DNA of 64,000 nt from Coniferiporia sulphurascens (taxonomy: Eukaryota > Basidiomycota > Agaricomycetes > Hymenochaetales > Hymenochaetaceae), in the NCBI GenBank assembly GCA_002794785.1, contig NBBA01000002.1, forward strand, positions 744,001 through 808,000, written 5' to 3'. Under the pieces are notes generated by a model that searched no databases, was not told the DNA's origin, and worked only from the letters and a program-made list of their open reading frames with translations. Below are positions 11,367 through 62,525 of the stretch, one piece after another (within the stretch, counting starts at the first letter, position 1; every line of letters starts with the position of its first letter). The position numbers and the translations under genes were made by a program.

Positions 11367-11373
11367 CACGAGG
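11367..11373. repeat. Target-site duplication, left (CACGAGG)
   Basis: CACGAGG directly precedes the left inverted terminus CACTTCAGGCAACC, and the same seven bases directly follow the right terminus at 30055-30061. This marks the insertion site of the 18.7-kb element. The family is reported to make duplications of about 8 bp, so one flanking base may have mutated. Confidence 0.9.
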
Positions 11374-11618
11374 CACTTCAGGCAACCCCTATCCTGGGGT
11401 CTATTAGACTGATCTGTCCCATGCCAAATGTTAAGTCTAATTGACCTCGAGCCCAATTTTCGTAGGCCTGCCCGTAGGGCTTGCCCGACACCGTTGGGCG
11501 TGCCCTGGTGGGTGGACCCATACTGACTGGGTCCGCCCAATAAGGCCACCCCAAAGTGACCTGGGCACGTCCAAATGGGCAGGCCCGATAGAGCCCTGTC
11601 ACATGGTGCTCGGGGTCC
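11374..11618 (+). repeat. Left terminal inverted repeat (~245 bp)
   Basis: It is nearly identical to the reverse complement of 29810-30054. The few mismatches that I could align are mostly transitions (for example CGTAGGG/TGTAGGG and GTTGGGCG/ATTGGGCG). Similarity ends near GATAGAGCCCTGTCAC. Its inner part contains GGGCNNGCCC words like those of the subterminal arrays. Confidence 0.9.
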
Positions 11619-12189
11619 TTTAGCTACCGGCTGGTTGGGTTTGAATTCTTGGCTTAATATATGTGCAGTTTCTATTATTTGGATTATTCACGGACTATGG
11701 ACAGTATGTTGAAATACCTAACAAGGCTGTGCTTCTTACATGAAAGTCAGCTTTTGAAGTTATGTTAAATGAGTGCCTGGTTTCCTGAGCATGCTGCATG
11801 CACATTGATAATTGGAATCGACATCGTCTGTTACAGCGGTGGGTGATTCCAGTATTCCCACATTAAAGAGTTCCCTTCAACAGAGTAGATACCTTAGTGT
11901 GAATAACCAATTACATTATAAAAGAATTTCTTCTGAGGCTGTCTCGCTTGCAGGATTTATTAACCATGCACCCACCACAAGCATACTGTATGTGTCATGC
12001 ACAGGCTGGCATTGGAGACTCTTACTTACATTGTGAACGTATTCAGAAGGGCAATTCAGAGTTGAAGGCACCAACCCAAGCATTGTCCCCCGCCCCGTTC
12101 AGGTGATGAGTACAACGAGAATCGTGTTGGCGTATTGATGCCAGTATGAGGTCGTGCTGGGTACGGCCGGGCCATCGTGGTGCTTATGT

Positions 12190-13190
12190 ACCCAGAATGT
12201 ATGCATACTTACTTGACCCAGACATCCCCCAAATGGAGGAAACATGCCCAACTACTTGTCCAGGTGTATCTATAATCTAACACTACTAGGTACACCCTAA
12301 TGGTAATGCAGGTGGGTGCACCCAAAATAGAGAGGCTCGCCCACTCAAAGCAATCAGGCGCACCTAGTAGTACCTGGGCATGCCCCATATATTTGTAGGG
12401 TGCGCCTAGCCAAGCAGGGCATGCCCGTCAAATTATATGGGCGTACCTAAACCCTTTGGGCGAGCCCACCAGTGTTGTGGGCGTGCCCATCGCATTTAGG
12501 CACACCCATATAGGTTGGTTGGTCTTAAAATCTACGCACTTTGTGGTAGACGATGAGGTGCAGTGGTGAAGTTGAGGCAAGGTGGGTTATCAGTGTAAAC
12601 CGATGTATTTCTAGGGCGAGACCAGCTCCCCTTATATACACGTTCCATGGGCTAGTACTACTATAACTATCTAGCTCCTATATCGTATGGCATTATCATT
12701 GCGTTATCGTTCACTTAGTAAGGTGGTTGTTCATATGACCACGTACTATATTTATATCGTTTGTTATATTTATTTAATAGTTGGGTGTGCCCATTAAGTT
12801 AATCTGGGCGTACCCACTGGTGGATTTTAGGCATGCCCATCGAAGTACTTGGGCATGCCTATTGCATTTAGGCGCGCCTATGTAGTTTGTTTGGGCATGC
12901 CCACAATGTGTTGTGGGCGTGCCCATCGGAGTACTTGGGCATGCCCACATAGTTTGGTTGGGCGTGCCCATCGTGTTTTAGGCGCACCCATCGAATACTT
13001 GGGCATGCCCATGTAATTCTGTTGGGCGTGCCCACAAGTGTGTTTTGGGCACGCCCAACCAACGACGTGGGTGCGCCCACAAGAGTATCAGGGCCCGCCC
13101 ATTGATGTACTTGGGCATGCCCACAGTGAGTGTCTGCTTGCCTGGGCACGCCTATGTGGGTACTTGGGCATGCCCAAATCTTATACTATA
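12190..13190. repeat. Left subterminal array of GGGCRTGCCC palindromes
   Basis: Variants of TGGGCATGCCCA, TGGGCGTGCCCA and TGGGCACGCCCA recur roughly every 25-30 bp in two blocks: about 12190-12515 and 12780-13190. The array is split by a solo LTR at 12523-12779. The spacers share a few words (ACTTGGGCATG, CATCG) but are otherwise different. Clustered palindromes just inside transposon termini are typical transposase-binding sites. That role is inferred here. Confidence 0.85.
12523..12779 (-). mobile_element. Solo copia LTR (257 bp), TSD GTTGG
   Basis: The sequence is the reverse of the LTR of the copia element at 42523-47933, running TCTTAAAATCTA...ATTTAATA. It is flanked on both sides by GTTGG (12518-12522 and 12780-12784). 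It was left by recombination between two LTRs and postdates the palindrome array it interrupts. It has diverged clearly from the 42.5-kb LTRs. Confidence 0.9.
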
Positions 13191-13452
13191 GCATTACCTT
13201 TTTCATTGAAAGTAAATAGACTTGAAACTCCTTTCATGACACAAACAAGTAGCTGTGCTCACTCAGTATGGGGTATGCCTGATTTTGATATGCTGGAGTC
13301 CAGAGAATGTCTGTGGACAAGCCCAAACAGACGTGTCTACCGGCCGTAAAGGAATCGAATTGGAGATAATAATTTTTTAAGTACATTGGGTGCCCTGCTA
13401 TTAAAGGAGGCCTCAAATCAACACTCTTAATAATATCTAGAGAGACCTGATA

Positions 13453-16400
13453 TTAATCGTCAGCATCTTCAAAAATTGGAGTCTGGTAACCATCCCTCAG
13501 GTTATCCGGTCCCCCTGGTTGTGAGTGCTGCAAAGAGGATGCATGCCGAGAAGACGATCCCTGCTCAAACTCTGGCAGAGAATGGACCCATTGTCCCTTA
13601 GAAACCTTCAGTTTCTTCCGAGGTTGTTGTAATCTGTTGTCTTCCAAAGAATCGTATTTCTTTGAAGACATAGCATTTTTCCCAGTGAGGCGCGAGGACG
13701 GTAGCGAAGGCGCTTGGTAAACTAGGACAGGGTCATGAGGAATACCCTTGGATGAATGCTTTGAATAGGAACGACTCGCAGCATGTGGACGATCTTCCAA
13801 GGGCGAGCAGACAGCAGTTGATTTGCGCATTTTGGACCTCTCAGCAGAGTGAGAGTGGGGTCAGGCTTTTTCATGGGAATATGTAGTACATGAATGATGC
13901 GGGTCACCTGCAGACACATGCACTCGGTGTGGATCAGATGATCTGGATTGGGACTGAGATAGGCGATGATATTTTCCTGCTGGACGAGACCCATCACTTG
14001 TGCGAGGGGCGACCTCTGAGTTACTCATCCGAGAGGTCTCAGTAGAATCTCCCTGAAAACGAGTAGATGGGAGAAGTCGAGCCTTAGATCGAGAGCGGTC
14101 TTCTTTCAAATGAGAGGTATGGATGGGGGCTCGCTCCCGAGGTGATTCCAGGGACTGCAAGCAACTGTGGGCTACTGAGTGGGAATGTGCTGGCGATCAG
14201 GTCTGGCGCTCTTTGTAATGATGTGCAGGGACCGAAGTGCGTGCCTGAGGGGGCTCGGCAGGGCACGAGCGTGCACGAGCATTCAATCGGGCTTGCGGGT
14301 GCATATGAGCTTCCAATAGCTGGGTAAGATGATCGCCCATGTCGACTGTGGCCCCGGTCAGGAAGCGGGGAGACAGAGGACTTGCTGTCTTTGTCTTGAG
14401 TGAACGCATAGGGGGCGTTCGACAACTCCATGTCAGTTTCGGTCTTCTCAGGTGTTCTTGAGTTTTGTGCTTTGTTAAAGTGAGCCACAAATTTAGGAGA
14501 GTCTGACAGAGATGCAAGTCCGTATCCACACTCGTCGATGACTATAGGCAACTTTGGCAGATCTTCAAAATAAGCCATCTTCATATCTGATAGTCCACTG
14601 AGCTCTAATACCCTAGAATATATCAAATGAAGATGTACCTTCACTGCAATCCTGCACCTGAATTATGTTACTTGGATGATTGAAATCCATGAGACCAGCA
14701 ACACATTTTCGATCATAGGAAACAACGCCATTGTTGGCCCATCGAGCTTGTTCCATATTTAGGTCTTTGATGAAATTGGTGTTGATTTGAAACGGAAGGC
14801 CAGTAGGCCAGACAAGGCACATACAATCGAGATAAAAGGAATCTGCAAAGTTGTTCCACTGATTCTTGTGCGAAAGGTAATTGTATTTATTCTCACTGTG
14901 GCACTTGCTACAGTCGACTAGAAGAGAATGATGTAAGCCACAAACACGAAGGAGAATACGAAGAGGAGCTGACTGATTTCGTATGAAAGGTGTGCATTAA
15001 TGTTCACACGGCAGTGGTCTTTTATATTGACAGGTTTGCCTTTTGCATCCTTCCTCACCTCCCAGTGGAGCTTGGGTCTTCCAGTCCTGTCGTTACCCGC
15101 AAGCTCATCATGTGCCATGCTAGAAATACCAGTTCAGGAGATCCACGTAAATAATATAGAATAAGACTAGATAAGTTCGCACCAAATCCCTGTTTCGACC
15201 TTGCATAAAAACTTCTCATCCATAACCAAGTTATTCTGAAAAAAACGTGTGCTTCGGGCGTCAGGCCTATAAGAAACGGGGCAGCTTGCTGATTTATCAG
15301 AGTGCTGACACCTGCCCTGACGACTTGAAAACCGTGTCTTGCAAACCATTCACACTGCGAGAAACACCTAAGTTTGTGTATTGTCCATTAACACAGGGTG
15401 GCGCACTTACAAGGTCATTTTGGTCCACTATTAACAAGCGAATAATAGTCAATGGATTGCTAGCACTTTCCATTGCTGAAATATTTGTCCTGTCCATATA
15501 GTCAAACTGTACTTTTAAAAGTTCATGACGAGCTCGATTGTCATTTCGTTGGCCAGGGGGGAAGGGTGTCGAGGAGCCTATTATATTCCCGTCGGACGAC
15601 TTTTCTCTTTTCTTCAGGTGTCTCTACTAGAAAAAGGTCAATCAGCAAACTCAGGGAGACAACGAAGTGAGGTTTACAATCTTCAAAATCCGGGTATTCG
15701 GTTTTGTAGCCTAACTTGGTGAACCAACTATGGTAAACATTCCAAACGTTGTCCCCACGTGATTCCCTTGGAAGTCCAAGCTGTGAATAGACATAAGAGA
15801 AATATTTGTCCACATTCCCATCCTTTCCCTCACAGGCAACAGCCTCTATTTCAGCCTTCAGTTTTGCGATGATTGTGTTAAGTTTGGTGCAAATATTCTT
15901 GGCAAGGGGTCCCGGTTTTGTATGATTAGTGTCGACCTTGTTACTTTCCAGCGGGGCGGCAGGTGACTTGGACAGAGGTTTGGAAGTCCCACTTTTTGAA
16001 GGTAGGGCGGATTCAGTGGGAAGTGCCGTGGAATGAGCGCACTGTTTAGATTTCACTCGAGATTTTGTGCCAGTCGTTTCTGGTTTTTTTTGGTGATCAC
16101 TGTGTGACCCTGAGGACTTCGATTGCTTTCGTCTGCTAGAGGGCCGGGCCTCCTCAGTTTCCAGATCCGCATCGTCTTCAAGGTCGTAATCGTCCTCCTT
16201 GTCCTCCTCTTCCTGAGTCTTAGGGTGGGGTATGCCCAAGGCATCCCTTTGCGCACGTGCATGGTTTTCTCTGGCAATAACCTTGTCGTAGTCATCCCCA
16301 CTACTATCGCCCTCAGCATCCTGTTCTTGGTCATTGAGGTCACTCGGTCCGGGATTGGTTTGCTCAATGTCATCATTTGCACCTTCTTCGCAAGACTCAC

Positions 16401-17723
16401 TGGCGTCGGGATCTGGGTTATTACCAATACATGACTTGTCAGAAATCAGTAAGAATCAGTAAAAACAAGAATCACCGTCTTGCTCCACTTGGCCCTCCTC
16501 CTCTTCGGAAATCACAGCCGGTTGTTTCTCTACAGCAGCCTGATCGACACCACCCCTAAACGATTCCGAGATGGTCGCATCAGTCCGGAGAGTTCTGTCA
16601 GGGAGAGCATGCAGCATCCGTGAATTTGCAGAGAAGTTTTTCGGTGTTGTACTTCCGATATTTTGGCCTTTAATCCGGTATGCCTTAGTCGGCATTAAGG
16701 CAAGATCAAGATCAGGGTATGTGACCCTGGACCAATGTGATGAAGGTGCGCTCTGATTATTCTCTTCTTCAGGTGAGCCATGTGGACCGTGCACCCAGTT
16801 GGACATCTCCGAGTCCCGCAAGGACAAGGGACGTTAGTCTGGTTGGGGTCATTATCATGTTCTCGCATCCTTACCTCGTGGTCGGCTGCTCTACTGCGTC
16901 CTTCATTTAACAACTCCACCGCATTGCTGCTGAGGAATGGGCGGTGGAAATTTTTTGTTGCAATAATATTGGCAGTGTTGCTCATGTCAGCGGTTTCCTC
17001 GGCTTGTGACCCATTGTTGCTCCCTCTGCTATGAGTGTCATCTGGGGGTGCAAGACTTTGTCTCTTTGCCTCAGAATCAGGTCCATGCCCTCCTTCACCA
17101 GCCCCTTCACTCACGAAGCGTTCCCTCGTTTCAATGTGAGTGGGGTGTTCCTCTATCTCATTTTCGATCTCACTATGCGCATCGGAGGGGGGCATCGATT
17201 GTTCTGTTGCTGCCAGGATATCTCCGTGAAGCCCCTCCCCTGCATAAACCTCATGATCACCAACGTTAGTGGGCAGTAAATCGGTATGTTTCAGTCCCGC
17301 TTGATCTCCATCCGCTTCAGCGATGCAAGAACTGAGCTTCGCCAATTCTCTATCCACTCCCCTCTGTTCGTCCTCAACATCTGCATGCCCGACAGAGGGG
17401 GGAGCAACATCAACGACCTTCACTGCTGATTCCCCATTGGCCCCTCCCTGTTTGCTATTCTCTGGATCATTGTCCTCTTCCACATAGTACCATCCAGGCT
17501 GTATAAGAGAATAAATTAAACAGTCGAGCAAAAAAAGAAGTTGCACTCACTTTTTGCTTTGGAGCAGAATTCCCTTTTTTCTTTCCTGCGGGAGGTGCAA
17601 TGGCACCCCTTCCCACCTGAGCTGTCCCCCACCCTGGTTGAACATATTATAACAAATCTTGTCTTTAACTTGCACATATGTACCTGTTTCACTAGCTTTC
17701 TGGCTTCTTGTCCAGGGTGGCAT
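13453..17723 (-). CDS. Large multi-exon cargo gene of the KDZ element, function unknown
   Basis: Several minus-strand frames with consistent spacing and splice signals form one gene. The probable start at 17723 gives MPPWTRSQKASETG. A short exon follows, then an acidic, low-complexity exon opening PGWYYVEEDNDPE (about 17500-16700) with a small Cys cluster, CPCGTRRC. Next is an acidic/basic tract at 16239-15950 and a conserved-looking segment KYFSYVYSQLGLPRESRGDN with NVWNVYHSWFTKLG (about 15830-15700). Then come an exon at 15118-14960, an exon with FYLDCMCLVWPTGLPF near 14810, and Ser/Arg-rich C-terminal exons to a stop at 13453. I recognise no enzymatic domain. The Trp-rich segment with basic helices could bind DNA, but this is only inference. 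The exact joins are not resolved. No obvious premature stop was seen, so it may be the best preserved gene of the element. Confidence 0.55.
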
Positions 17724-17849
17724 AATGCGAGCGAGGTTGATTGTAACGTAGACGGTGTCATAGCAGATATTCGCAGCAGGGTTATGTTGCTTGCAAGTGA
17801 GCTTACAATATTTATGTGAGTATATACCTGTACTTATCTGCCGATGCAA

Positions 17850-20080
17850 TCGCTGACCGATTATCCTGTAGGCACTCTCGCCAAGTCGGGTAGACGATAC
17901 TGCTCCCTGTGTGCTTTAACCAAATATGGTTGGCGTGCACCAACATCTCCATTTTATATTAAAAACAAAACAAAAGCATGGCCCCTTATTAACTGATCTT
18001 AGCTAACCCATACCCAGTGCACTGTGACAGCAGTTCGGCACACTGGCTGCACTAGAACGATTCCCATGGAGCAAATTCGGTTCCGTGTAGTGAACCCCAG
18101 AACTCCACTGGGCAAGGACATGATCCAGCCAAGGGCAGCGGGGAATCAGTAACAAGTGATAAGAATATATATCCAATTAAGTACATACCAGTATATCCAA
18201 TTAAGTATGTACCAGTATATCAAGATGGAGCCCGACTTGAAGATGCAATGCTTCAGGCATACCGGCACTGTAGGGTGTACAGCATGTGCACATCGATGTC
18301 TAGTTGGATAGTGTGCAAATGCAGGCGTCTGCATAGACGCTCATCCTGACCGCAACACTAGCGCTAAACTGGCGTTTGGTAGGAGCACTCCGCTTGCGAA
18401 CACAAGCGAGATGCAGAGCCCGGAAGCCAATATAGCAAGGACGGGGGGGGACAGGAAACAAGACAAGACAAGACAAGACAAGACAAGACAAGACAAGACA
18501 AGACAAGATGAGACGAGACGAGACAGAGCGAGACGGGGCGAGGATGAGGGGAGGATGACAAGGCGAGGATGACGAAGCGATGAGGCACGATGGTAGACGG
18601 TGGGATAAGGACGGACGGGGAGATAAGGGCGGCGAGGTGAGGGCGACAAGTTGAGAGTGACAAGTTGAGGGTGACAGGTGAGGGCGACAAGGCGAGGGCG
18701 ATGGGATGGGGGAGACGGGAGGAGACGAGGATGAGGGGGCGACAAGGGCGAGGATAATGATGAGAAGACCTGGAACACATCATTCCTATGGTCCGAGCAT
18801 TCAAGCTTTGTAGAGTAATTTGAAATTCTTATTATACTTTCATCCGGCCTTTACCCAACCACTCTGTCATGGACAGTACATACTTGGCAATGCTCTTGTT
18901 GTTCGCTCCCTTTCCCTCTCCCTATAAGTTTGCAGCCTGCAATTCCATGCAGGTTTCCTTGTCAACATCCCTCCAGTGTCCAGCAAGTCCTCCTTAAGCA
19001 AGTCCCAACAAGAGTGTGTTTAGTGCACACTCTTGGGCATTCACAACGACAGGAGACGATTGTCTCCATCTGGTTGAATACAGTGCACAGACTGACTGGT
19101 ATCTGTGCTACGCCGACTTATCCAGGTGCCACTGCAGTGCACTTCTCGTTTCATCAAGACTTTGAATACATTTGTCTTATCTTGTCATAGGCGTTGTATA
19201 GCAGGTGAGAGCCCACTTTTTCGACATGCCGCAACCGTTTAAATATTGACATCGGCTGGGTGAACTCATCTAAAACTGTCGTGTGCATTGGCGATATATC
19301 ATGCAAGAACAGGTAGCTTCATCCGTGCATTTCACACATGGTCCTGCCGGTCTAGCATTTGTCTGGGGGTAGGCGTTACACTTTTACGCCTGTCGTTCAC
19401 AAGGACGCCATTTGGCGCATTGTGTGGTATTTCCTCTCATGTTTTCAAGTGTGAGTATGTCTTGCATTTTATGAAATATGGCATGAAATATGAAATATAC
19501 ATGTTTCTCGATAGCCTTCGATAGCCTAATTTACACTACTACTATGTGTTCGCCAGCACACAGCCTTCAGATAGACTGAGTTGCCTATAGGTGAGTCAAG
19601 CTATGCAGCAGGTGTGTCAACTGAACTGAGCAAGACATATGCATAAATAGGAGTCTCAACTTGTGTCCTAGAAAGTGGTAGAGTGTGCACATGTGTGTCA
19701 GATTGCAAGGACTAGTCGTTTTCAGATGAGTGAACCAATTGGTATGTATACTTGTCAACATCAACATAGAACATGCTCAGTAATATTCAGTGTATTTCTA
19801 GATTGAAGGGCCGCTGTCCGCATGTGGTGGCAAGTTCGAGTCGGCTTTAACTGTGTAAGGGACAGTTCCATAAACAAAAGCGAATGCGATGTTAATTGTG
19901 ATTAATACCAGTGGGAGTTGAATACTTTTTAAACCGAGAACAATGTCTGCACCACTACAGGTTACGCACCGTCTCGGTTTGTGCTTCGTGATGTTTAATC
20001 TCAATGCGCTAATTAACATATTGAACTTCACAGATGACACGGTCAAAGTACGTTCTCTGGACACGTGAATCACGGCAGAA
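17850..20080. other. Spacer between divergent cargo genes; simple repeats
   Basis: No gene was recognised. It holds two direct copies of TATATCCAATTAAGTA near 18170-18215, an ACAAG microsatellite and a G/A-rich low-complexity tract to about 18770. It separates the minus-strand cargo gene from the plus-strand genes and so probably contains their promoters. Confidence 0.5.
18458..18508 (+). repeat. (ACAAG)n microsatellite, about ten units
   Basis: A pure five-base repeat ACAAG runs about 51 bp. It grades into GACGAGAC and GAGGATGA-type purine-rich sequence up to about 18770. The frames on the complementary strand here are Ser/Leu/Pro repeats and not genes. Confidence 0.9.
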
Positions 20081-22186
20081 TTGTACTTCATGTCACTCAT
20101 CATAACAACGCCCAATGCAAACTTTATACCGGAGTTCCCATACATTGATGATAAGGGTATAGTGAAGCATGACGACAGTCTATGGGGGGGCCATGAATAT
20201 TCCCAATGGCCGCAACTTCATTCATCCTCAAATTTGCATCACGCCTGTATCTCCTTTGATCTGGCATGTAATACAACTCTGGGCGACAGGGATAATATTC
20301 TGTGGTATGATATACAACAAAAAGACTTTATCCCGACCAGGGGTTTCAGTGGCCTCGGTGAACATTTAGGCCGCTTGTGTACCGAACTATTAGACGCTCT
20401 TGAACAAGTCCTAGAAATCTGCGCTGTGAAAGCGTGGAAGGAGTACGTGGGGTTGAAAGAGACGAAGCTAAGGTCAACGATCAATTGTGTTATTCACGTT
20501 GGTCGAGAAACCATAGAGCGTCTCAGACAAGTTCGCCAGGGCTGGGGAATATCTTTATTTTCATTTCAAGATGCTCAAAGAGTTGGCATTGAGCTCGATG
20601 CCGTCATTTGCTATGCCCGCAAAGTATACCCTCATATACATTCTAAAGATTTTTTCGATCGGGACGTACTTGCCATATGAGGAGCTTTCGCCACAGATCC
20701 TGCCATTGTACAAGATTTCTACCGTCTTGGCATACCCATCTGGTATATACGGCCAAGGGCGTTGCTTACACCTGAAACTAGAGTTTTTCAGGTGACTGAG
20801 TGTTTGTGATGGGACCGGAATCTAAGCAGTGTGCCGTTTTGTATACCAGGTACATCCACTGCTTGGAAAATATCACTCCAACATGACCTGCACACAACCT
20901 CTTCTCAAGTCATGGATGATCACACTATGACAGAACTTCTCAATATCATGAATGGCGGCAGGATTGCATTATCTGTTGCAGGGCCTCAGGTAGGCCTCCC
21001 TCGGACTGCGGCCGACCCTCGGATTGCTTCAAGCTTGCTACTACCCGCGTCTACTGTCCAAGCAGTGACATCGTCATCGACACATCCGTCACCTGCATCT
21101 AGCACTCCCTCAAGCTCAAGTAAACCTAAGGGTAAGCACGGACGAGTCGAGGAGCCGAAGAAGAGTAGGGAAGCCAATCCGAACTTCCTGCATTTACTGC
21201 ATGTGCCAAATGGCATCGATGGCACACCGGATCTCCCGGACTTCCACGTTCATGTGCGTGCAGCACTAGAGAGAGTACTGCCTATAGAGATACTCCCTAA
21301 CGCTGCAGCCTTATATCCTCTGCCTCCTCCTTATCAACTTATCCACAAGGACTGCGAAAAAAACACGCAACAATATTTGAACTACGTGCGCATTCATGGG
21401 GCCCTGCGGCACATGCTTGTGAATGGTGGGACTTTTGATAAGTCCATCTGGCGAAAACTGGTGACTTGGAGGGCAATTGTGCATGGTAACTATGACAAAG
21501 GCTCACCTCTTGTTCCAAATACTGTCTCGCCATTCATCGAGAATATTTATCATACTCTACCTCAGCCATCGTCATCATCTCACTTGACAGACTCAGCAGG
21601 CGACCAATTAGGCCAGGATACGTTACGGGCATCAAAAAAACAGAAGCTCGCATCCAATGCAACAATGAAAGTAACATTTGGGGTTGAATGGTCATTTAAA
21701 TCATTCTCACCAGATATGCAGTCTGAGTGGCGCAGCCAGGCCGTCTCGATCGACCATATCAATCAGGACAAGGTTCTTCAGATGGAGGTTCAGTGGGAAT
21801 TGGCAGAAATGCTCTTCCGCACAGAGCTGTGGGCGCTGGACCAGAGACTTCTGCCACGAGATTTCATGAGCATTGACGCCATTTGCGAACACACTGCTCA
21901 CCTCAGTGGGATATATCTTGGGAAAGCCGATGCCAAGGCGTCTTTCGTTCCAGACATCTCCCTTCCAGTAGTCGAATACTGGGGGGAGCATCCAAGTGTC
22001 GAGTCTCTTCGGTCAATGAAAGAGGTATTCAAGAAATGGCTGAATCATCCACAAAGGCTACTGTTAAGGGGGGACATAGACGAGAGGGATTTTCCAGTCA
22101 TGGTGGATTTTTATGTGCAAACCTTTGTACACATTTTCAACTGCATGCCGGTCATGCACTGTAACGTGCCTGTTTCTTTATCTTAG
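20081..22186 (+). pseudogene. Cargo gene copy 1 beside KDZ transposase, one premature TGA
   Basis: The protein is unidentified but belongs to the same family as the gene at 38810-42307. Shared blocks include GGHEYSQWPQLHSSSNLHH against GPQEYSRWPQFHSLVNIHH, and DFYRLGIPIWYIRP against DMFKWGIPVWIIRP. The first exon runs from 20081 (or ATG 20090). An in-frame TGA at 20678-20680 interrupts it just after DRDVLAI, and the homologous frame resumes immediately. An intron near 20775-20850 probably leads into the exon ending at 22186. That exon has a Ser/Pro linker and the segment DFHVHVRAALERVLPIEILP, which matches the second half of the other copy. It sits 240 bp upstream of the KDZ frame in the same orientation. 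Function unknown. Confidence 0.65.
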
Positions 22187-24461
22187 AAATTCAGAATGGA
22201 ATGGAATGATATGCGACCACATGGTTCCTGCTCGTCTCAATCTCAATCGATACTTAGCCATAAGTTTAATAAGTCTAGTGGGTCAACTTTTTCCACAGGA
22301 AACCCTGCTCGGCCCACAAATGGCTGCGGTATATTATCAGTAGGCTAGCTTTCGCTTGCCTAAAGATGTATATGTGAGTGCGCCAGTCTCTGTAGTCCAG
22401 TGTAACTAACACATTCGAATAACTTTGCCTGCCCCACTCCCCCACCTCCCAAGTGAACATGGCGCCTATCCTCTCTTTAAACAGCGGCAGAAGGCATATG
22501 CAAACTTTAACGATGATGCTCCATTTGGTCTGGTTCCCAGGTCTTCCGCTGATGATTTTTTCGCAAGCTCCTCCCCTGCCAGGTTAAAGGAAAGACCACT
22601 GGTCTTCCTTCCGAACGGCAAGACACTTAAGCAGCCGAATCTGCTGTACAAACGCAGCCTTACATACCACCATCCTTCACCTACATTCGATCTCCCCGAA
22701 GAAAATGATTTTGACCCTGCAAGTGCGTTCGATCAGCATCCAACAACACATTACCGTTTATCTTGCACAGGGATGGAAGACCCCACTTTGATGACTGCAA
22801 GACAAAAGAAAAACCGACAATGGGAGCACTGGAAGTTCGATGTCATACCATCACTGATAAAGCCTTTCATGGAAGTTCTTAAATGTTCACAGTCTCTTAG
22901 ATTACCCATGTCTCCACCAGCAGACACAGTATGTACATGTGACATTCCTCCAAATACTTTGCAAGTCCTGTGCGTGTATTTTGATTGTACATCACAGTTC
23001 ACTTGTTCTCCATCCATGAATTACTTATTTAGCCAGTATTTAGGCTTAGAAACCCTTCATATCCATGCTTGTGCATGCCAGCCTGCCCCATTACAGCTTT
23101 TAAACAATGGGTTATTTGCTTGCGCTCTGTGCTTCCCTACCCTCGCCATTGATCTCAAGTTGCTGGAGTTCACAAGCATCCTATTCCTTCGCATGCCACC
23201 CAATTGAACAGTGATGTCTTCATCTATTGAGGCCTTTCTTTTCAGTATTGGGTTTGCATTTAATGGCAAGGTATGAACTTTAATTGTGCAAGGGAAGCTA
23301 TTGTTGTAGTCTAATGTACTTCATTAGGATACTCTTCGACACTGATTCTCCAGTGCGCTACAGTGGTATGGCGTGCTGCACGATACGACTGAGGTCCATA
23401 TTGCCTCAGTTATTGCTGAGGTGTCAGTGTCTCACGTCGGTCAGGCAGAGAGGTCAAATTCACCCGTTTGGGACTCTTCCGACTTAGAAGACGATCATAC
23501 ACCCCCGAGCTCACCCTGTCGAGGCCGTCTGACCCGAATCAATAACACAACAACACCTACTTCAGGTAAGCTTAAAGACATTGGTTACTTTCACACCTGA
23601 ACAGTGTATGACGCTAACGGCGCACTCAGGGGATTTATCAAAAGATATTGTTAGAGACAGGGGATCATCCTCCGAGTCGCATACACAGGACACCGTGTCT
23701 GACAGTGGTGCATCCGTTTGCGATTCTCGACAGACTGAAAATGGTAATAGTTAGATGAATATTTGATAGACAATGGGCAGGCATCCAGTTATCTACAAGA
23801 TTGATGCCCTCTATGTTTCAGGGGAAGAATGCATGATGACTCCTTTTTGTAAGTTCTCTCATTTTCTCTCATTACTTTTATAGTAAACTTGACATCAAAT
23901 GATAGGAATGATGTTCTCGTCTGTGTTGACGCCTGCTTTCAGCAGAAACGGGGGCAAGGGAGCCATGACCCAATACTTCATCATCCTCAAACTTCCTTCA
24001 TTCCAGAATGCGAAGTGCTTGAAATGGAGACACTTGTTGACAATATCCACAGTGTCCCTGCACGCAATCGTGATTGACCACACAAACCCAAAAGCCCCAA
24101 AAAACGCAAGGCTGTGCAAGACGATAGTGATGACGATGATATTGTCATGGACGGTATGCGGGTGTCTGAGGCGGTACTGAACGGCTGTGAGAACTCGTTC
24201 AAGGCTGCTGACGATAAGCGCCAAAAAGCTTCCACACAGTTCTTTTCTGACACAGGGCTTATGGCTTTACTCTGCCGGCATGATCAGGTCCTTTGGGTTG
24301 TGAACATGACGTCTGCCGGCAAAAAGCAGCATTATGTTCTAGTACTCCTGGATAAGTTGTTTCAGCATATTCCTAACAATGTGAACATCAGCATACTTTA
24401 CGATATTGGCTGTCAGCTGCACCAAAGCATCGTTAAATGGGGTTTCTTTAAAGGCATTTCC

Positions 24462-25810
24462 TGTTAGATTCGCTCCTTGATTAAAGGTTAGAAACAAGTG
24501 ATAACAGATTCACACAATGTTACTAGTTAGTTTAGGGTAGGCTTGGTACCCTTTACTTGCTAGAGTGTTAGAGCTGATGATGGTGGTAAGAGACAAGAGA
24601 TGAATTAAACTGCTTTTTACTGCAATTTTACATTGGGCTTTTATACCCTACATGTTGTATGCTATTTACTATGTTTTGGTAGATACTACAACATACTACT
24701 CTCGCTTTATAAGTCATAGGAATATTCTGGTACAATCCTGTACATGCTATTTACTATTCTTAGCTTCCTATGAGTCAGTCATATATTCCGGTACGTTCTA
24801 CAGCCTACCATGCTATCTTTATCCTATGCCAGAACCTTCCCTAAGTTTCCATCAAGTCATATAGTATAATACCTAAGGTAACCATTCTTGGATACTACTA
24901 TACCTATGATGCTTCTCCTAATTTCCTAATTGATCCTGCTGTGTGATGCACTATACTTGGCTCCCATCAATTGCATCTTCAATTGATCGCCATGCTTCCA
25001 TCGGCTAATCTTAGCTGAATGCTTAGATATACTTGTGTGGCTCAGCGATTATGCTAGCCTTCTTAATCTTATCTTGTTGTGGCTTGTTAATTATTATCGT
25101 AGACTACAATTGAGTCATACCTTCCATGATATTGCTGAAGGGTGTTTGTTCTGGTGTCCTATTGTCTATTGGCATAAAGAGTGCTTCAGGTCCTATAGTG
25201 TTTATATTGGTTATCCTGCTATACCCTGGTGTGACTCTATATGATGGTTCATCATTGAACCACTGTATTATAATTTCTTTATCTATTGGTACTAACTCCT
25301 GTCTTAGATTTGGTTCCTTTCAATCTACTGTTGTGTGTCCTTTGGCCATGAAGTTGGCCTTGTATGCGAATAGTTGTTCTTGTAATTGTTTATTGATAGT
25401 ATGAACTATTTGGTGTGCTGCTTCCACATAATTGGTTGATGTAATAACCGCCCTTTGATAACATAATTCATTATGTGGCTGATCATAAATCTTGGTTCTT
25501 GTGTAAGCACTGATTACATATCTATTCAATTGATATGAGAACATAGTTGCTCTATGTTCAATTATTACTTCTAGCCTTTCCGCCACTTGTTGTTCCCTTG
25601 TAGTATGATTGAATGTAATTTGACAGTTGTCATATCCTGCATTCTGTCCTACTGTTGCACATGCAATGTTAAATGCTTTCCATGCTACTTGATCTGCATC
25701 TTTACAGCATTGACATAGATTCCTGGTATCGATTAAATTTACGGGTCTTGCCATGTCGATCTTGCTTATCCGTTGATCCGGCGATCACAATTTTCATCAA
25801 TTTACTAACA
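24462..25810 (-). mobile_element. TE-A copy 1 (1349 bp), TSD TTTCC
   Basis: It begins TGTTAGATTC and ends TTTACTAACA, flanked by TTTCC at 24457-24461 and 25811-25815. It is almost identical in full length to the copy at 61350-62698. It interrupts the KDZ catalytic exon. With TG...CA ends and a 5-bp duplication it behaves like a solo LTR, but it also contains an ORF. Confidence 0.95.
25104..25754 (-). CDS. TE-A ORF (217 codons with one internal TGA), function unknown
   Basis: The start codon lies 56 bp inside the element. The frame opens MARPVNLIDTRNLCQCC and runs 144 codons to a TGA at 25322-25320. It then stays open in the same frame for 71 more codons to a TAG. The sequence after the TGA is protein-like and similar in all copies. 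A CxxC pair near residue 14 is the only motif seen. It resembles no retroviral enzyme I know. It may be a Gag-like or accessory protein encoded in the U3 part of an LTR. Confidence 0.5.
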
Positions 25811-25988
25811 TTTCCCATCGCCTTCGTTTTGCCATCTCCGTTTTTCATGCATACGGCCACCAGTGGGTGTGTCAGATTATTTATCATCCATGTAAGTGTA
25901 CTGGCTTCGGGCTTACGGATGGTGAGGGTTGTGAAAGGTTTTGGAGCTCTATCAAGCACTTGATCCCATCTATGCACGTAACTGGTGT

Positions 25989-26547
25989 TGTTAAGCTCAA
26001 CGGTTACATGGTGATCGACGTCGGGGCTTCCTGATCATCGGAACTGATGGTATGGCAACAGGGCTTCCTAGATGTCGTAAGTCGAAGGTGATCGTCAGTG
26101 GGGCTTCCTGATCGACGATGTGGACGCGGTAGGCTTCTTTAGCGAGTCGGGTTATGACGAAGTGGTAAGTGGCACACAGGTGCACAGTAGACTGGTGGTA
26201 GCAGATAATGGGCTTGTATGAACAAAGAGCACAAGCTTAGGGCTTGTGCTACTGAAGTTACATGCTTATATGCTACTCTATGTGTTTGCTACTGTATCGA
26301 CTTGGTTAGGTATGTTTACCAGACTTATGGAAGGTCGTGGAAACTCAAGGAAGACCTTGGTAATACAAGTGCGATGATCAGTAAGCAAAGCACATCATCA
26401 TGGTGCAGTAAGGCATCATCATGGCGTCTTATGGCGCAAGGCGAAATAAGGATGAGTAAGGCAGAGGAATGGGGGATGTGCACTGACTGATGATGACGAA
26501 GAGGAAGTGAGTCAGCGCAGTAGGGGAAAGTAAGGAAAATTGTAACA
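25989..26547 (+). mobile_element. Solo LTR-B (559 bp), TSD GGTGT
   Basis: The repeat runs TGTTAAGCTCAACGG...GGAAAATTGTAACA, with GGTGT at both 25984-25988 and 26548-26552. It carries three GGGGCTTCCT words in its first 150 bp and no ORF of note. It lies in an intron of the KDZ gene: the exon before ends near ATGCAC (donor GTAACT) and the next begins at TATCATATGCATC. Confidence 0.95.
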
Positions 26548-28459
26548 GGTGTAAGAGTTCTAATACTAAGGATTCTCTTATAGTTCCTGCACTTTCTAAC
26601 CAAATATACGTCTAGTATCATATGCATCTGTACGCACTTGATTCACAAATCCACCATCTTGGTGAAGCAAATATATTTAAGTTGGGTAGGTGGCTTGCAA
26701 GGCGTCTCCACAGCAGCCACAGGCGTCTTTCTAGTGGGCAATGTGGGTTGACAGATTGTGGAATCCCTGAAGACGAGCTGGACGACGAATGGCAGATGCA
26801 ACTCGTGGCCCAGACCAAACCCTTACCTTGTATGCATATCTTTTCCATGTGCAATACTTGCGTATATTAACCCTTCCTGTTTCTCTAGGACAATCGAAAA
26901 CAATTGCCAAAAATGCGATTGAAGAAGTCATAGCACTGCAAGATCGTCTCGATACCCTCACAAGACGACTATCAATCCTTGACAGCCAGATCCTCAATGC
27001 TGACGACAATATTAGCTTCGGTGATTTCAGTGCCCAGGCACAGCATATTATTGCAATTTGGGTGAAGCTCTCTATGGACATTAAACGCCATACTGATGTG
27101 CTTGGAGTCGAGGATCTTGAGAATCTGAATGCTCTGAAGAGCAGTCCTTTCATTAGCATGCGATTGAATGCATGCACTCTAAAGCAGAGGTTAAGATTTA
27201 AGCTACAGTCTCGAAAGTTTGAGCTTCAGAACATTGAATGCTCATACAAGCATCATGTTTCACAGCGAGATGGTTAGTTAATCCATTATCTGTTATATTC
27301 CACTACCGTAACTACATATATTTTTAGAGCAAAAGAAAATGGACCTTATCGAGTCACAACTCAAGTGTCACGACCCCAGCATAACTCAGCTGGCTCTCAA
27401 GTACAACAAGCTATGCGAAAGCATGCAGAAACTTGTGCGTGAAGGCCGAGCGCCTGCATGTGCAATGTGCCCTTGCCCAGTCCAAACAAAAGGTCTGTTT
27501 GATATGGATATTGATGATGAACTCTGGAGTGATCTAGGGCTGTTCGACAAAGCTGATGGTGATATACCCCATTGGCTTGGTGATGAAAATGTCAGAAAGG
27601 GCATTCATGCTCTGCTGGATGTCCATCGATGTAACAAGGAAATTAAACAGATTGAAAAAGAAAGCAAAGCAATGAGGGAATGGTTTGCAACCAAGTGGGG
27701 AAGGATTTCTTCTGCAATCGCTAACTCTTGTAAGTCGGCCCTTTACTGAGAACCACTCCCTGTCATGTTGCAATTATCTCCTTCAGCAAAAAACTCGGGT
27801 CTTCGCTATGCACTTACCATGCGTAGGATGAAATTTTTACTGCTTTTTCAAGAGTGGCGGTTGCACCTATCTTCCCTTCCGCTCTCTTCTCCCTTTAATC
27901 TAAGTGCTTGGGGCCCAACCGAAGAAGACTTGCATTACCTTGCAATATACCAGGCTCGCACACGTGGAATATGCAGTGTTCAAGCCGACTCACCTGGTTC
28001 AGCGATTTCTTCCACCTCTACTACTGATGACGAGGTGGACGTTCATGATGAGGTGGACATGGATGACGAGCTTTATGCTGATGACGAAGTATACGAAGTA
28101 ATGGAGGCGATGGAAGGCATGCCTGTCCAAGACTCCCACATAGATAGTGCCGACTTCCAGGTGGATTCAAGAGATTTCGAGTACATGTCTTTGTCTTCTC
28201 CATCAGTTCCCCCATCACCCCAAAAAAGGCAGCATTTGTATGATCCTTTCCTATAAAACACTATTTACTTATACTAGTAGCACTTGTATGCTCGAATTTA
28301 ATATTGCTTGTGAGAAACTGTTAACTGAAGGATTCTCGAAATTAACACTCACAAAGACATGCTAAGTAGTCTAAGTGTTCTGCAATTATAACTTTAGAGG
28401 CCTATACTAACATCTATTAGGACTAACAAATGCATCTAGGATCTTCTGCGTGGTACTGA

Positions 28460-28790
28460 ACCCTACATGGGCATGCCCAAAAAAGCAACTGGGCGCGTCC
28501 AAAATTCAAATTCAGATTGGGCGCTCCCAAAGTTTACAGGGCATGCCCTACAATGTATTTGGGCACGCCCTACTGACTACCTGGGCACACCCTCAATGTA
28601 TTTGGGTGCACCCTACTGACTATTTGGGCATGCCCTACTGACTACTTGGGCATGCCCTGCTGACAACTTGGGCACACCCAAATAGTCAGTAGGGTGTGTC
28701 CTGCAAAGTATTTAGGTGTGCCCTACAGACTATTTGGGCATGCCCTAAGAAGTATTTGGGCATGCCCTGGTAAACCACTGGGCTGGAAGC
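28460..28790. repeat. Right subterminal array of GGGCATGCCC-type palindromes
   Basis: About thirteen copies of TGGGCATGCCCT, TGGGCACGCCCT or TGGGCACACCC occur every 24-26 bp. They are separated by spacers such as ACTGACTACT and AAGTATT, beginning 200 bp after the transposase stop. It mirrors the left array (12190-13190). Confidence 0.88.
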
Positions 28791-28964
28791 CAACCAGGAG
28801 TTGGCAACACTAAAGTTCAGCCTAGGACAGAAAGGACAAAGGTGTCTTTGTTGCTGTCAGATAGACTGAGGCAACAAAGGCACGGAAAGCAAACGGGAAT
28901 AGCGAGGGAATTATGTAAGCGTAGATCTGTACAGTCCGGAGTAAATACCATCATGTGACCATCA

Positions 28965-29035
28965 GTCCGGCACGTCAGGTGACAGCCCGGCGCGTCATGT
29001 GACTGACAACCCGGCGCGTCATGTGACGTCTGGAC
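28965..29035 (+). repeat. Three direct repeats of CCGGCGCGTCATGTGAC type
   Basis: CCGGCACGTCAGGTGAC, CCGGCGCGTCATGTGAC and CCGGCGCGTCATGTGAC follow each other at about 22-bp spacing. A fourth, partial copy (CATCATGTGACCATCAGTC) lies just upstream. Each unit holds a GTCATGTGAC or GTCAGGTGAC near-palindrome, so a protein-binding site is possible. Confidence 0.7.
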
Positions 29036-29084
29036 CCGGTGGTCTCCAATGCGTAGGCATCAGAGTAGTAAGCCCTGGGCTTAC

Positions 29085-29300
29085 ATGGGCATGTCCAAGT
29101 AGCCTACTAGGCCCACCTAAATGCTGGTCGCATCCTAAGCCTTGTGGGGCAGGCCCAATGGTCACGCCCAATTTTTCAAGGGCATGCCTGCTTTCTCATG
29201 GGTGGGCCCTAAGGCTGATCCAGTACTTCTGGGTGTGCCCTCTATTACTTGGGCAAGCCCAATGTTCAATGGACGAGCCAATGCTGTGGGCCTGCAACTG
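29085..29300. repeat. Second right subterminal block of GGGC/GCCC words
   Basis: Less regular elements such as TGGGCATGTCCA, AGGCCCACCT, GGGCATGCCTG, TGGGTGTGCCC and TGGGCAAGCCCA continue the palindrome theme toward the right inverted repeat. Confidence 0.7.
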
Positions 29301-29809
29301 GTGGCCAAACCCGACATTTTGCGGAGTGTTGATCAATAAATTATATGCCATGTAAGCTGTAACCAGATTCCAGAGTGCTAAAAACCATGTAGAGCTTAGT
29401 ACATGTGAGTGAATTACATTCATAATTTTCGTTAAACATTGCTGACCTGCTCTTTTTCTTGTGCACCTAGTTTACATTATATCAGCGTATGGTATTTTCC
29501 ATTTTTTGTTGCATAATGCCTTTGTATGCCACCCTTCAGGTCACCTCATGTGCTCTGGTACTTATTCCCATTGATCTGGTACAATAAAATGGTCAGCAGC
29601 CTGCTGTATGCATTGGATTTTGCATGGCACAGAGTTTATGCCGCTTTTAAGGCTCCTGTGTGCAGAGGGCCATGCAGTGTTGCACCACATGCTGACGAAT
29701 ACATACGGGTATTCAGAAAATATTCTAGCATTTGACCTCAGGCTGAGTGTATGTTGCGTGAGTATAGAATATACAGCCCTATTAAACAAGCCGCTAAAAA
29801 AAGAGACTA

Positions 29810-30054
29810 TGACCCCAGACACCCCGTGACAGAGCTCTATCGGGCCTGCCCATTTGGTCGCACCCAGGTCACTTTGGGTTGGCCTTATTGGGCGGACCCA
29901 GTCAGTATGGGTCCACCCGCCAGGGCACGCCCAATGGTGTCGGGCAAGCCCTACAGGCAGGCCTACGAAAATTGGGCTCGAGGTCAATTAGACTTAACAT
30001 TTGGCATGGGACAGATCAGTCTAATAGACCCCAGGATAGGGGTTGCCTGAAGTG
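29810..30054 (-). repeat. Right terminal inverted repeat (~245 bp)
   Basis: This is the reverse complement of 11374-11618 with a few mismatches. It ends GGTTGCCTGAAGTG and is followed at once by the duplication CACGAGG. Confidence 0.9.
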
Positions 30055-30061
30055 CACGAGG
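30055..30061. repeat. Target-site duplication, right (CACGAGG)
   Basis: Identical to 11367-11373. The empty host site therefore reads ...ATTACTCACGAGGAATAG... Confidence 0.9.
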
Positions 30062-33000
30062 AATAGTATTCATGCGACTATCGGAGGAGCCGGCCTGAAT
30101 GAATGACATACATCAAAGACTGAAGATACGAAGGGGGTCTTACACCGTGTGATGACGGCTTCCAATGACGTTTAGGCTTTCTAGACTCTCAAGCCGTTTC
30201 GGAAGGGGCTAAGTCACTCAAAAGGAGGCATCGATATCCCTTCAACGATAACTCAAGCCCCGGGCCACACTCATTGCAGACAGCTCTCCAAGATGATCGT
30301 TACTCCTAAGATGTTTACTTCTCTGACCCATTTGATGCAGTGGCAGATATGCGGAGCACCACACCTCCGCATTTGTTCCGGCGGTAACGGACTTCGAACT
30401 TCGGTCTAGCTGTGGCGGGACTTTGACATCTCCGCCTTGCTCAGGTGAGTTGCTACTTACATTGATCCTTTCTTTGCGCGTCTTCTCGAGGAAGGCGTTG
30501 CGTTCGGGAGTATAGCGGCCATCGTCGGACGTTCGGTCTCTTGGTTGGCCTAATTAGTCACAGCCATCTCTATCTACCGTCATGTGCCCTGACCAGTTTT
30601 CCTTGCTCTCTTTATAGATGGTGGTTCCAGGTAAAGTGGATGCTCATAGAATCTCCCCGTGCACTCAACTTATGCCGATAAGTTGCCTTGTCTTCATTGG
30701 GGTTTAGGTCAATGGACACGAGGTACGTATATGCTGATCTGCGAAAGATGAAGTGTGGGTCAAATTCATCGGCTTTGGTGATCTTGTCACTTATTTGAGG
30801 ACCGACCTCGGTATATCTACGTAAGACAGCGAGGAATTTGATTATTCTAAATACTTTGGGGATTCACCAATTTGGACTCTTATGATGCTTACCCGGCAGC
30901 AGCCTCTGGCCTTCCCCGCATTCTCAATACTCAACGTATCAGGCCAAAAGCGCTACCCGAAACGGACAAATCACTTCAACCGTTGGTCGCTCTTCGGCCC
31001 ACACCTCCGAACTTTTCTAATAAGGGATGCAAATATTAATTGCGGTCTATCTTTCAGCGAACGCAATCCTATTTAACGTAGCGCAACGCAATGCAGTCAT
31101 AGCGTCTGACATCGAGCATGCTTGCGATGGTCGCACTGACGGTTAAAACGTGCACCATCTACGACTTCTAGTCAGTCGTCAAATACCACGGTATCCCCTG
31201 GTTATGCGCCACACATTGGTTCATCACGATCACTTATGTTCGTCCCTCTTCCTCCGCTCTTCCTTTGCTAGACATTATTGGCGATTAAGCTAACTATTCA
31301 TCTTAGCTTCATCACACCAGCGCCGAGCTTCCCCACTATCGCGGGGGAAAATAGAACTTCCAAAGGGGTGCTGCCGCAACTGTGAACCGAGACTTCCTTG
31401 GCTGGCGAGGGTGCTTCCTCCTGCATCATGATGGTGTGTGCTATCTTCGCGGATCGTTTGTCAACCCAGCTGACCAGTCCTACATATTTAGTGGCTCATT
31501 ATCACGTTGTTCATCACTTCTTCCCGCAAATGCCCTTCTGTAAGTCATTATATGCGCAGCATTGTATAGGATGGAAAAACGAAAGCTAATTTTATTCGCT
31601 CATAGACAATGGGGTATCTACAACGCTTCATTGGCGAGCACTATCGCTAATCGAACGAGTCTCTTTTCAAAGGCCAAGGAAGACGTATAACAAGTGCCAA
31701 TTCGTAGAGGACGAGGGTGAGTGCTAATCTCTTGGACCATTTCGCCGGAGCTCCCAGAGCGCTTTGTCCTGATTGTTTAAAAGAAATGTTGTGCAGGCAA
31801 CGTGCCGTTCTGCAAGAATAAATCCGGGAGATACGCAGTCATCGATGTGGTCCGGCACAAGTAAGGGAGCTAAGGCTCTCATTGGGGAATATCACGGGTC
31901 CCGCGAAGTACTAGTGCCCGGCGCTACCGTGGAAGCCGTCTCGGTGGAGTTTTGTGGAGAGGGCGAGTAGAGCTTCAGCAAAGGAGGGAGCTATGAATGC
32001 AAAAGACGCCTCTGTTGAGCCGCTTATATCGGTTTTCTTGATCATAACTTAGGAAGCCAGAAGAAGTGCACCTGGTCGTTCACACGATACGTTCGGTGGG
32101 TGCCAGTGAAGACTACTACTGAATAAGTTTTTTCCTATTAAACTCCCAACTTTGATCTCTGATCATGTAATCTTGTTACCGCATTCGGCCGATTTCGGAG
32201 CCGGGAAAACATTTCGCGGCATCAGCTGCCTATGCCCGCTTGAGTTCTCTCACGCGATTACTTTACTGGATATACGACATACTCGTGCAGCACATAGATA
32301 TTCGAAATGCGTTCGCATAGGCCACGCATTTCTGGTGCATGTATTCATCAAATTTTCCGGTTAACCTAGAGTTCTCATCGCACAGGCTCGGCTTGCTGCA
32401 TTGCGCAGAGTGGCAGACGATCCATGATGCATCGACTCGGATTGCCCGCTGAAAAAAGGCAGCTTGCCATAAATGACGAGTGCCACAGCCAACGGCCCGT
32501 TATAGTCCACGTATAAATATGTTGCTCCACCTGTATCGAAGAAGGTCCAAATGACTTCGAGTTTATGGAGCCAATTAGTAGTTATTTGTTTGGTATTTAC
32601 TTCCGAGTCCGCCTACTAAACAGATGATCGTAGCTAGGCGCTCTCCGTGCCTTACCTGCAGATCAAGGGACTTAGGTGGTGCATTTAAGTAAGTAGCTGT
32701 GTAGCTGCTTTGCAGTGTTGTTTGGGCGCCCGTGCTGCATCGCTGTGCAGGGAAGAAAGTTAAGTACGCATGGAGCTGTTAGTTTCCCTCCGCAGAAAGT
32801 TTCGCCTTTACTGTAATAGCCTCCGGCTTTGTCCTCAGAACTACAACAACATCAAACACAGCCCAGACCCAGGTCATTGCAGAGCCTGCTTCCGGTTCCG
32901 AAAGCAAAAAAAGGATGCGGCCAACCGAATCACAATACTCTTCCCCTATCTTTAATCTGAGAACTCCGTAGTCGTACACGATACATTTACATGTCTCTTG

Positions 33001-38809: not shown

Positions 38810-39219
38810 CTATTTATCCCTAGATGGTATGGGAGTCAGTGCATGGGTAGGGGGGATAGGATGATGAAAAATGGAAACGAAATTCTCCACAAAAAATTGC
38901 ATGCATTGAGTGAGCACACTCTTGCATTCAATTTGAGACATACACTCTGTGTGGCTGTAAAAGAGGGGAGGGGCACTCGGCCAGTCTTTCAAGACTTCCA
39001 TAAAAGCGGATAGCATACTGCTATCTACCTCATCTGCCCAAAACTCCTTTGGGCATCCCCCTACCTCAGGGAATATACCAGATGCATGCCTGTCAACATG
39101 GTTCCCTCCCCATATTTTTGCCACAAGCACCTTCCTCTTTTCCTCTTCACTTGTGCCATGCTGTCTGTCCTGCATGAGTTCCTTGTCCACTGCCAAAAGA
39201 TCGAACCTCCACTGAGTTT

Positions 39220-42790: not shown

Positions 42791-42836
42791 TTGACTCTAC
42801 AACTAACAAAATGATTAACAAAAACGAAATGAAACA

Positions 42837-59867: not shown

Positions 59868-60063
59868 TGGGGGAAAGAAGAATAAAGGGATAGGGGATGG
59901 GGAGGAAAGGGAAGTGGATGGGTTGAAGTTAGGTGAAAAACAGCTCGACAGATGTCTACTGTGAGGGGGAACTGGTGTGGGTAGTTAACCCAGGAAGTTT
60001 AGGGGCGGCGTATGTGGCTGTGCAGAGTGTGAGATGATGGTGGTAAGAGGTCAAGGGGTTCGT

Positions 60064-60078
60064 GCTTACAGATGGGAT
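60064..60078. repeat. 15-bp target-site duplication at the LINE 5' end
   Basis: An exact copy of 53371-53385 (GCTTACAGATGGGAT). It lies in or next to an intron of the Plavaka gene, between the CNIHHFAHIPS exon and the next one. Confidence 0.95.
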
Positions 60079-62511: not shown

Positions 62512-62525
62512 GGGTATAAAAGCCC
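62512..62525 (+). promoter_or_regulatory. TATA box of TE-A
   Basis: GGGTATAAAAGCCC is also present in the other TE-A copies (for example inverted near 24640). It is followed by about 175 bp to the repeat end, which includes CTCTTGTCTCTTACCACCATC. It is probably the retroelement promoter. Confidence 0.6.

Follow-up and report, generated by a model that had tools for sequence, protein, structure and literature searches.

In this study, a window of 64,000 nucleotides from Coniferiporia sulphurascens (contig C2:744001-808000 of the 39.35-Mb, 31-contig genome; positions without a contig name are those of the window) was examined for a transposon at 11374-30054. We consider it likely, with good confidence, that this 18,681-bp element is a terminally complete, coding-dead DNA transposon of KDZ, a large fungal transposon superfamily, with a probable core of three genes (the KDZ transposase and two others, called A and Y here) and with family-specific palindromes near its ends. 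The features observed from left to right are as follows.

11367-11373, no strand: left target-site duplication CACGAGG, 7 bp, abutting the left repeat
11374-11618, plus strand: left terminal inverted repeat, starting CACTTCAGGCAACCCC
11477-13175, no strand: palindromes of the left subterminal zone, GGGCRYGCCC at 24 sites with up to one mismatch allowed (100 shuffles: mean 0.35, maximum 4)
13453-17546, minus strand: gene A, probably multi-exon and fast-evolving, outer limits approximate, with homologues beside KDZ at C12, C29 and C10
20090-22186, plus strand: gene Y, 699 codons including the stop, start codon inferred, with TGA at 20678-20680 and 20807-20809 and the stop TAG at 22184-22186
22410-28253, plus strand: KDZ transposase gene, limits approximate, collinear with the C12 copy and with its PF18758 core divided into three pieces
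24462-25810, plus strand: insertion 1, like a solo long terminal repeat (LTR), 1,349 bp, TGTTAG..CTAACA, 5-bp duplication TTTCC, interrupting the catalytic domain of the transposase
25989-26547, plus strand: solo-LTR-like insertion 2, 559 bp, TGTTAA..GTAACA, 5-bp duplication GGTGT
28469-29951, no strand: palindromes of the right subterminal zone, GGGCRYGCCC at 20 sites with up to one mismatch allowed (100 shuffles: mean 0.29, maximum 2)
29810-30054, minus strand: right terminal inverted repeat
30055-30061, no strand: right target-site duplication CACGAGG, 7 bp, abutting the right repeat

The limits of the element had been proposed by an earlier sequence-only reading, together with inverted repeats of about 245 bp and a 7-bp duplication directly outside both of them, and the repeats, the flanking duplication and an empty paralogous site all bear these limits out. 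Aligned without gaps, 11374-11618 and the reverse complement of 29810-30054 are identical at 231 of 245 positions, and blastn aligns the two repeats with 234/246 identities and 2 gap positions (E=2e-111). When the 200-base flanks were joined with one target copy, query bases 6-399 matched C10:1559371-1559768 at 81%, and longer joined flanks matched the same contig at 1133/1388 (82%, 92 gap columns), crossing the junction with one CATGAGG. The empty site for which the sequence-only reading had suggested a search was found in the same genome with a single target copy, though it reads CATGAGG instead of CACGAGG and, judged by these alignments, is a paralogous segment rather than an allele. The element is coextensive with its own termini, one target copy being present at the paralogous empty site; the C10 site offers a base-exact example of the insertion, and the element a good boundary reference for KDZ elements. 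It lies just upstream of a broken gene copy (30265-30743, interrupted by stops), and a better-preserved paralogue of this flanking gene was observed at C10:1558600-1560600, in the right part of the empty-site match. We take this paralogue to resemble the start of a fungal delta-12 fatty acid desaturase.

The KDZ transposase named by the same reading is indeed inside the element, matched by Pfam PF18758, but in pieces. These pieces, 23853-24074 (E=0.0036), 24078-24464 (E=1.4e-27) and 25777-26031 (E=5.2e-21), cover profile positions 2-46, 48-137 and 142-201; two of them exceed the curated cut-off alone. In the C12 copy, positions 47-198 of the profile fall within one uninterrupted exon (E=1.4e-48), and this KDZ exon compared between the window and C12 gave a proportion of nonsynonymous differences (pN) of 0.20 and of synonymous differences (pS) of 0.67. 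A weak CxC1-like cysteine cluster was noticed at about 23052-23183 (PF18802, E=0.002, score 18.7 bits, cut-off 26.9). The open reading frames of 26616-28253 were also considered as a separate gene, which was rejected; they are most likely the 3' exons of the transposase gene, since in C12 they follow the KDZ core collinearly with just about 61 bp between. Concerning the two insertions, the 1,349-bp one is 99.6% identical to 61350-62698, and genome-wide the best 40 of 227 candidates scored were all near full length (itself included), while for the 559-bp one the best 40 of 926 candidates scored all matched over most of its length. Their ends, 5-bp duplications and copy number make both of them solo-LTR-like. 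With the transposase gene interrupted twice, the intact transposase of an autonomous transposon is not present here. Because the insertions split the transposase and Y carries two premature TGA codons, the window copy is, on the evidence of its sequence, coding-dead and a fossil. The earlier view of the element as a firm basis for studying its cargo is not sustained, as expressing the extra genes of such a copy as they stand would mislead.

Fungal genes are rich in introns, and this lends something to an alternative in which the element still works, its two LTR-like inserts being spliced as introns and TGA being read through; C10 and one of the two C12 copies (C12b) share the TGA at 20678, with coding conserved on either side. 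We find this alternative very improbable, since the 1,349-bp insert is repetitive, with at least 40 near-full-length matches (itself included), bears a 5-bp duplication and lies inside what is a single exon in C12, and since premature stops stand at ten other columns of Y, all counted ones being TGA. The same codon at 20678 is CGA in C29 and CAA in the other C12 copy (C12a), which fits CpG decay of an arginine codon, and conserved read-through of this TGA was rejected on that account. Across the aligned Y codons of the five copies (C12a and C29 compared in pieces only), 14 premature stops were counted in 11 columns, all 14 of them TGA, with CGN in another copy at 8/11 of these columns and CGN, CAN or TGN at 10/11. 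The Y stops thereby display the pattern of CpG transition at arginine codons, and methylation may have been the cause of the decay of these copies.

With respect to related elements, a genome search for the same termini, which the sequence-only reading had proposed, was made with a 19-bp terminal pattern allowing up to three mismatches and disclosed 36 occurrences against 4 for a reversed-pattern control; by this count the termini of the element are family ends. Five inward-facing end pairs, window included, came from the list of 36 ends, and a sixth, on C10 with the end variant CACCTCAGGC, from a looser search of selected stretches; the pairing of the 36 ends covers those in the six pairs, which are listed below.

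11374-30054: window element, 18,681 bp, 7-bp duplication CACGAGG
C6:753222-771327: C6 element, 18,106 bp, 7-bp duplication TTTAATT
C12:524690-544057: C12 element, 19,368 bp, 7-bp duplication ACCAGAA, repeats of 261 bp, 96% identical
C10:1683661-1703498: C10 element, 19,838 bp, 8-bp duplication GTGGATGA, repeats of about 250 bp, 90% identical
C17:643718-661161: C17 pair, no duplication, repeats 99% identical over 162 bp matched
C18:214979-237382: C18 pair, no duplication

The target duplication is of 7 bp in three pairs (window included), of 8 bp in one and absent in two; the absence may be due to recombination, because the C17 repeats are still 99% identical over the 162 bp matched. KDZ matches were detected inside all five other pairs (C12, C10, C6, C17 and C18), and genome-wide 11 loci match most of the KDZ profile, which we call full KDZ loci. 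In nine partial loci (C4, two in C6, C10, C14, C1, C3 and two in C12) the match falls chiefly in the second half of the profile, beginning at about 91-116, which suggests a second KDZ clade that differs in exon structure.

The ends of the window element begin CACTT, and EnSpm-type ends are of the form CAC..GTG with subterminal repeats (PMC12730594, PMC8195511; here and below, the literature is cited from those parts of each paper that were available). This would agree with a CACTA/EnSpm or Plavaka-type element merely containing KDZ fragments, which we nevertheless regard as barely conceivable: KDZ is the sole transposase domain in the element pieces scanned, KDZ matches recur inside the five other pairs, and the 7-bp duplication (8 bp in C10) is outside the 2-5 bp of that clade (PMC12730594).

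Both of the two further genes seen by the sequence-only reading exist, and we take them to be A (about 13.4-17.5 kb, minus strand) and Y (20090-22186, plus strand); their status as cargo was not supported by comparison with the other copies. Y was found upstream of KDZ on the same strand at five of the 11 full KDZ loci (window counted), its homologues adjoining KDZ at C10, C12 (two loci, C12a and C12b) and C29 with E about 1e-145 or better. Weaker Y homologues are present at C7:1570102 and C2:784560 (40560-41021 of the window), among the matches listed, so that 5/7 loci matching Y adjoin KDZ. Gene A, whose conserved pieces lie within 15544-16455, 15300-15623, 14616-14996 and 14087-14662, is divergent to KDZ at four loci (window, C12, C29 and C10), the non-window matches being 9-11 kb from the KDZ match, and 4/4 matches to A among the best candidates scored are beside KDZ. 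The C12 element is collinear with that of the window, with the same gene order and orientation. Between copies, Y gave pN of 0.22-0.25 against pS of 0.70-0.81 (8 comparisons) and A gave pN of 0.20-0.36 against pS of 0.63-0.71 (5 comparisons among C10, C12 and C29 only, window copy excluded); the synonymous differences are saturated or nearly so, which makes the ratios of pN to pS upper bounds. Because A and Y recur beside KDZ in the same arrangement and are under purifying selection between copies, they are probably core element genes, machinery and not passengers, which corrects the idea of a cargo-carrying element.

A and Y are unlikely to be host genes captured by the element, a true cargo either passive or giving the host a trait. 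Such an origin would suit their lack of any match to a Pfam family at the curated cut-off, the six of 11 full KDZ loci of the genome at which no Y was detectable, the Y homologues at C7:1570102 and 40560-41021 without a KDZ match beside them among the matches listed, and a gene content that varies among KDZ elements, as with the KOW-domain pieces in C6; it is hard to reconcile with the purifying selection, with the proportions of A and Y matches found beside KDZ, and with the persistence of the same genes, order and orientation though the Y proteins of the copies are just about 60% identical. The KOW-domain (Spt5-like) coding pieces are inside the C6 KDZ element at C6:761941-762984 (L074:7201-8244) on the minus strand, and the gene they belong to is a better candidate for true cargo.

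As regards the Y protein itself, its 458-residue C-terminal piece gave no hit at E<=0.001 among the best 7,991 candidates scored in a protein database search and no PDB sequence match, and a single-sequence AlphaFold model of this piece had a mean predicted local distance difference test score (pLDDT) of 32.5. The possibility that Y is the N-terminal part of the transposase was rejected, as a stop is found at the same place in all five copies, after a conserved HC.xxP/S..L end, with differing stop codons. A second, diverged Y-like gene was observed in the window at 38813-42316 (minus strand), about 30% identical in the compared part and split by a 1.35-kb repeat copy at 39220-40559; no KDZ match adjoins it among the matches listed, and a search with this gene found a further fragment at C15.

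The structured subterminal DNA noted by the sequence-only reading proved to be palindrome arrays at both ends. With one mismatch allowed, GGGCRYGCCC has 24 sites in 11374-13400 and 20 in 28350-30054, with a single site in the 15 kb that separate these zones and two in the 45 kb beyond the element; all 21 exact sites of the window are inside the element, and genome-wide 169 exact sites were counted against 100 for a control pattern. At the left end, 4 sites lie in the inverted repeat and 20 more follow after 799 bp, measured from site start to site start; of the 19 spacings of these 20 sites, 12 are of 22-23 bp and four more of 41-42 bp; at the right end, 3 of the 20 sites are in the inverted repeat and the array is less regular. 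Both ends share one layout, in which 0.6-0.8 kb separate a few sites within the repeat from the array.

Arrays were sought at 30 of the 36 family ends by asking whether the best near-palindromic 10-mer occurred at least 5 times in the first 1.5 kb inside, above all 8 shuffles, and 17 of these 30 ends had one. In the outer 1.5 kb, no more than 3 copies of an end's own best 10-mer were present at 29/30 ends, the exception being L029 with 9 copies of GGGCGTGCCC outside. The motifs differ between families (GGGAGCTCCC, GGGAAATCCC, GGGACCTCCC, GGGAGATCCC, GGGAGCGCCC and TGTGTGCACA), with exact letters that are approximate, each 10-mer being the best of its end; the C1 end (L015) has GGGCGTGCCC in common with the window. 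Exact GGGCNNGCCC was counted 29 times in the window zones and 0 times in the C10, C12 and C29 stretches, whereas exact TGTGNNCACA was counted 0 times in the window zones, 11 times in C10, 27 times in C12 and 13 times in C29 (one side only), and a few cross-matches between the two sets of stretches were seen with one mismatch allowed. The C29 outcome had been set down as an expectation before its sequence was analysed. Several families with the common end CACTTCAGGCA but different 10-bp palindromes amount to a natural experiment on changing recognition specificity.

Comparison of the proteins offers a hint as to what reads these palindromes. The pieces of A (24-116 residues, chosen as alignable cores) are 25-40% identical between the window and C10, C12 or C29, against 42-52% among those three, while the identity of Y is flat (60-61% against 61-64%) and that of the KDZ exon intermediate (63-70% against 71-81%). 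Because A diverges along with the motif, we propose it as a TnpA-like binder of the subterminal palindromes, a plausible role that we hold to be a little short of probable. Alternatively, the KDZ transposase itself would bind the arrays through its cysteine cluster, and A would do something else, such as counter-silencing. This is possible rather than probable, and it finds agreement in the CxC1-like cluster of the N-terminal part of the transposase, below its cut-off as given above, and in the C6/C1/C18 group, which has arrays though Y and A are undetected or unproven there; as weak evidence to the contrary, the window and C12 copies, whose palindromes are wholly different, still share 51% and 67% identity in two aligned N-terminal stretches of the transposase, against the 25-40% of the A pieces.

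Under the reading that we prefer, functional ancestors of the element would have had a core of the KDZ transposase, Y just upstream of it on the same strand, and the divergent A. The transposase would cut at the 5'-CACTTC ends, probably in a cut-and-paste movement with Y as a presumably essential partner, and a fast-evolving accessory protein, most likely the product of A, would bind in dimeric form to the 10-bp palindromes of its own family, arrayed over about the first 1.8 kb at each end, and would unite the ends or regulate silencing, as TnpA does for En/Spm. The window copy would have arisen by a single insertion duplicating 7 bp and would later have decayed by CpG-type mutation and retrotransposon insertions. 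More tentatively, KDZ, Y and A may form a three-component transposition system across several families in this fungus, each with its own palindromic address in two-zone arrays read by a fast-evolving A; if true, families with one ancestral transposase would be kept apart by a changing DNA code.

Several observations weigh against this account. The target duplication has 8 bp in C10 and is missing from the C17 and C18 pairs, and 13/30 ends have no array as defined above. The six full KDZ loci without detectable Y count here too, as do the KDZ elements of the C6, C1 and C18 group, which have palindrome arrays and no detectable Y or A; the searches for both genes score the best candidates only, so that absence is unproved, and an A-like gene in C6 was not significant (hmmsearch E=0.62; hhalign E of 0.018 and 0.029 in one chosen comparison). 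As A and Y have no Pfam match at cut-off and the tested Y piece has no PDB match, no DNA-binding fold is established for either. The case for A as binder is a correlation of divergence across four copies, and shared descent explains much of it, since the window is set apart by its KDZ exon too. Concerning decay, C12b has a TAG exactly at a frame change, outside the counted pieces, some KDZ matches elsewhere include TAA and TAG besides TGA (six-frame matches, introns included), and the CpG signal of the window element is modest at the whole-element level, its ratio being 0.61 against 0.65 to the left and 0.70 and 0.63 to the right, with 0.42 in the C12 element.

Among known systems, Kyakuja of the KDZ superfamily (Kyakuja-1/2_LB of Laccaria bicolor, PMC12730594) is similar in its KDZ-type transposase, 7-bp duplications, 5'-CA..TG-3' ends, mushroom host and second gene. 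It differs in that no terminal inverted repeats are reported for the Kyakuja families in the part of that paper available, against the 245-bp repeats here, and in that these families carry a TET/JBP gene where the window element carries A and Y (PMC12730594); PF12851 (TET/JBP) had no match genome-wide, and the control genomes likewise gave none. KDZ1-KDZ3 of Cryptococcus neoformans (PMC12810828) have a KDZ transposase with a CxC1 cluster and long inverted repeats (139-241 bp); their duplications are of 8 bp in KDZ1 and 4-8 bp in KDZ2 and KDZ3, and their movement has been shown (PMC12810828). They are about 9-11 kb long with the transposase as the only gene named in the parts of that report available, unlike the 18,681-bp window element with A and Y; its main text does not use "subterminal" and has "palindrom" for a restriction site only. 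Zisupton and Dileera (PMC12730594) have related transposases, and Zisupton has terminal inverted repeats like the window element; their duplications are of 8 bp, against 7 bp here and 8 bp in the C10 element. TnpA and TnpD of CACTA/En-Spm (PMC8195511) offer the likeness of two element proteins, one of them a highly diverged regulator binding subterminal repeat units of 10-20 bp, though with an unrelated transposase and short duplications, the resemblance being of design only. In the literature searched (partly titles and abstract openings), we found no description of how KDZ ends are recognised, and its titles and abstract openings hold none of palindrome arrays or of genes like A and Y in KDZ elements; novelty to science is not claimed for the arrays or the genes.

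An Rfam scan gave no match and a tRNA scan found none. Elsewhere in the window, a gene at 957-4822 (minus strand) codes for a NACHT/nephrocystin-type domain followed by 14 WD40 matches, coded over a 129-bp tandem array at 1208-2939; this NACHT-WD40 gene and the KDZ gene both agree with a basidiomycete genome. A Copia-type retrotransposon is present at 42819-47516 (plus strand), with a weak gag match, a Pol beta-barrel, an integrase core and RVT_2, and a reverse transcriptase (RVT_1) with RNase H, resembling that of long interspersed nuclear elements (LINEs), at 53890-56025 (minus strand). A weak Plavaka transposase match, below cut-off, was also noticed at 59959-60900 (minus strand, E=0.0022).

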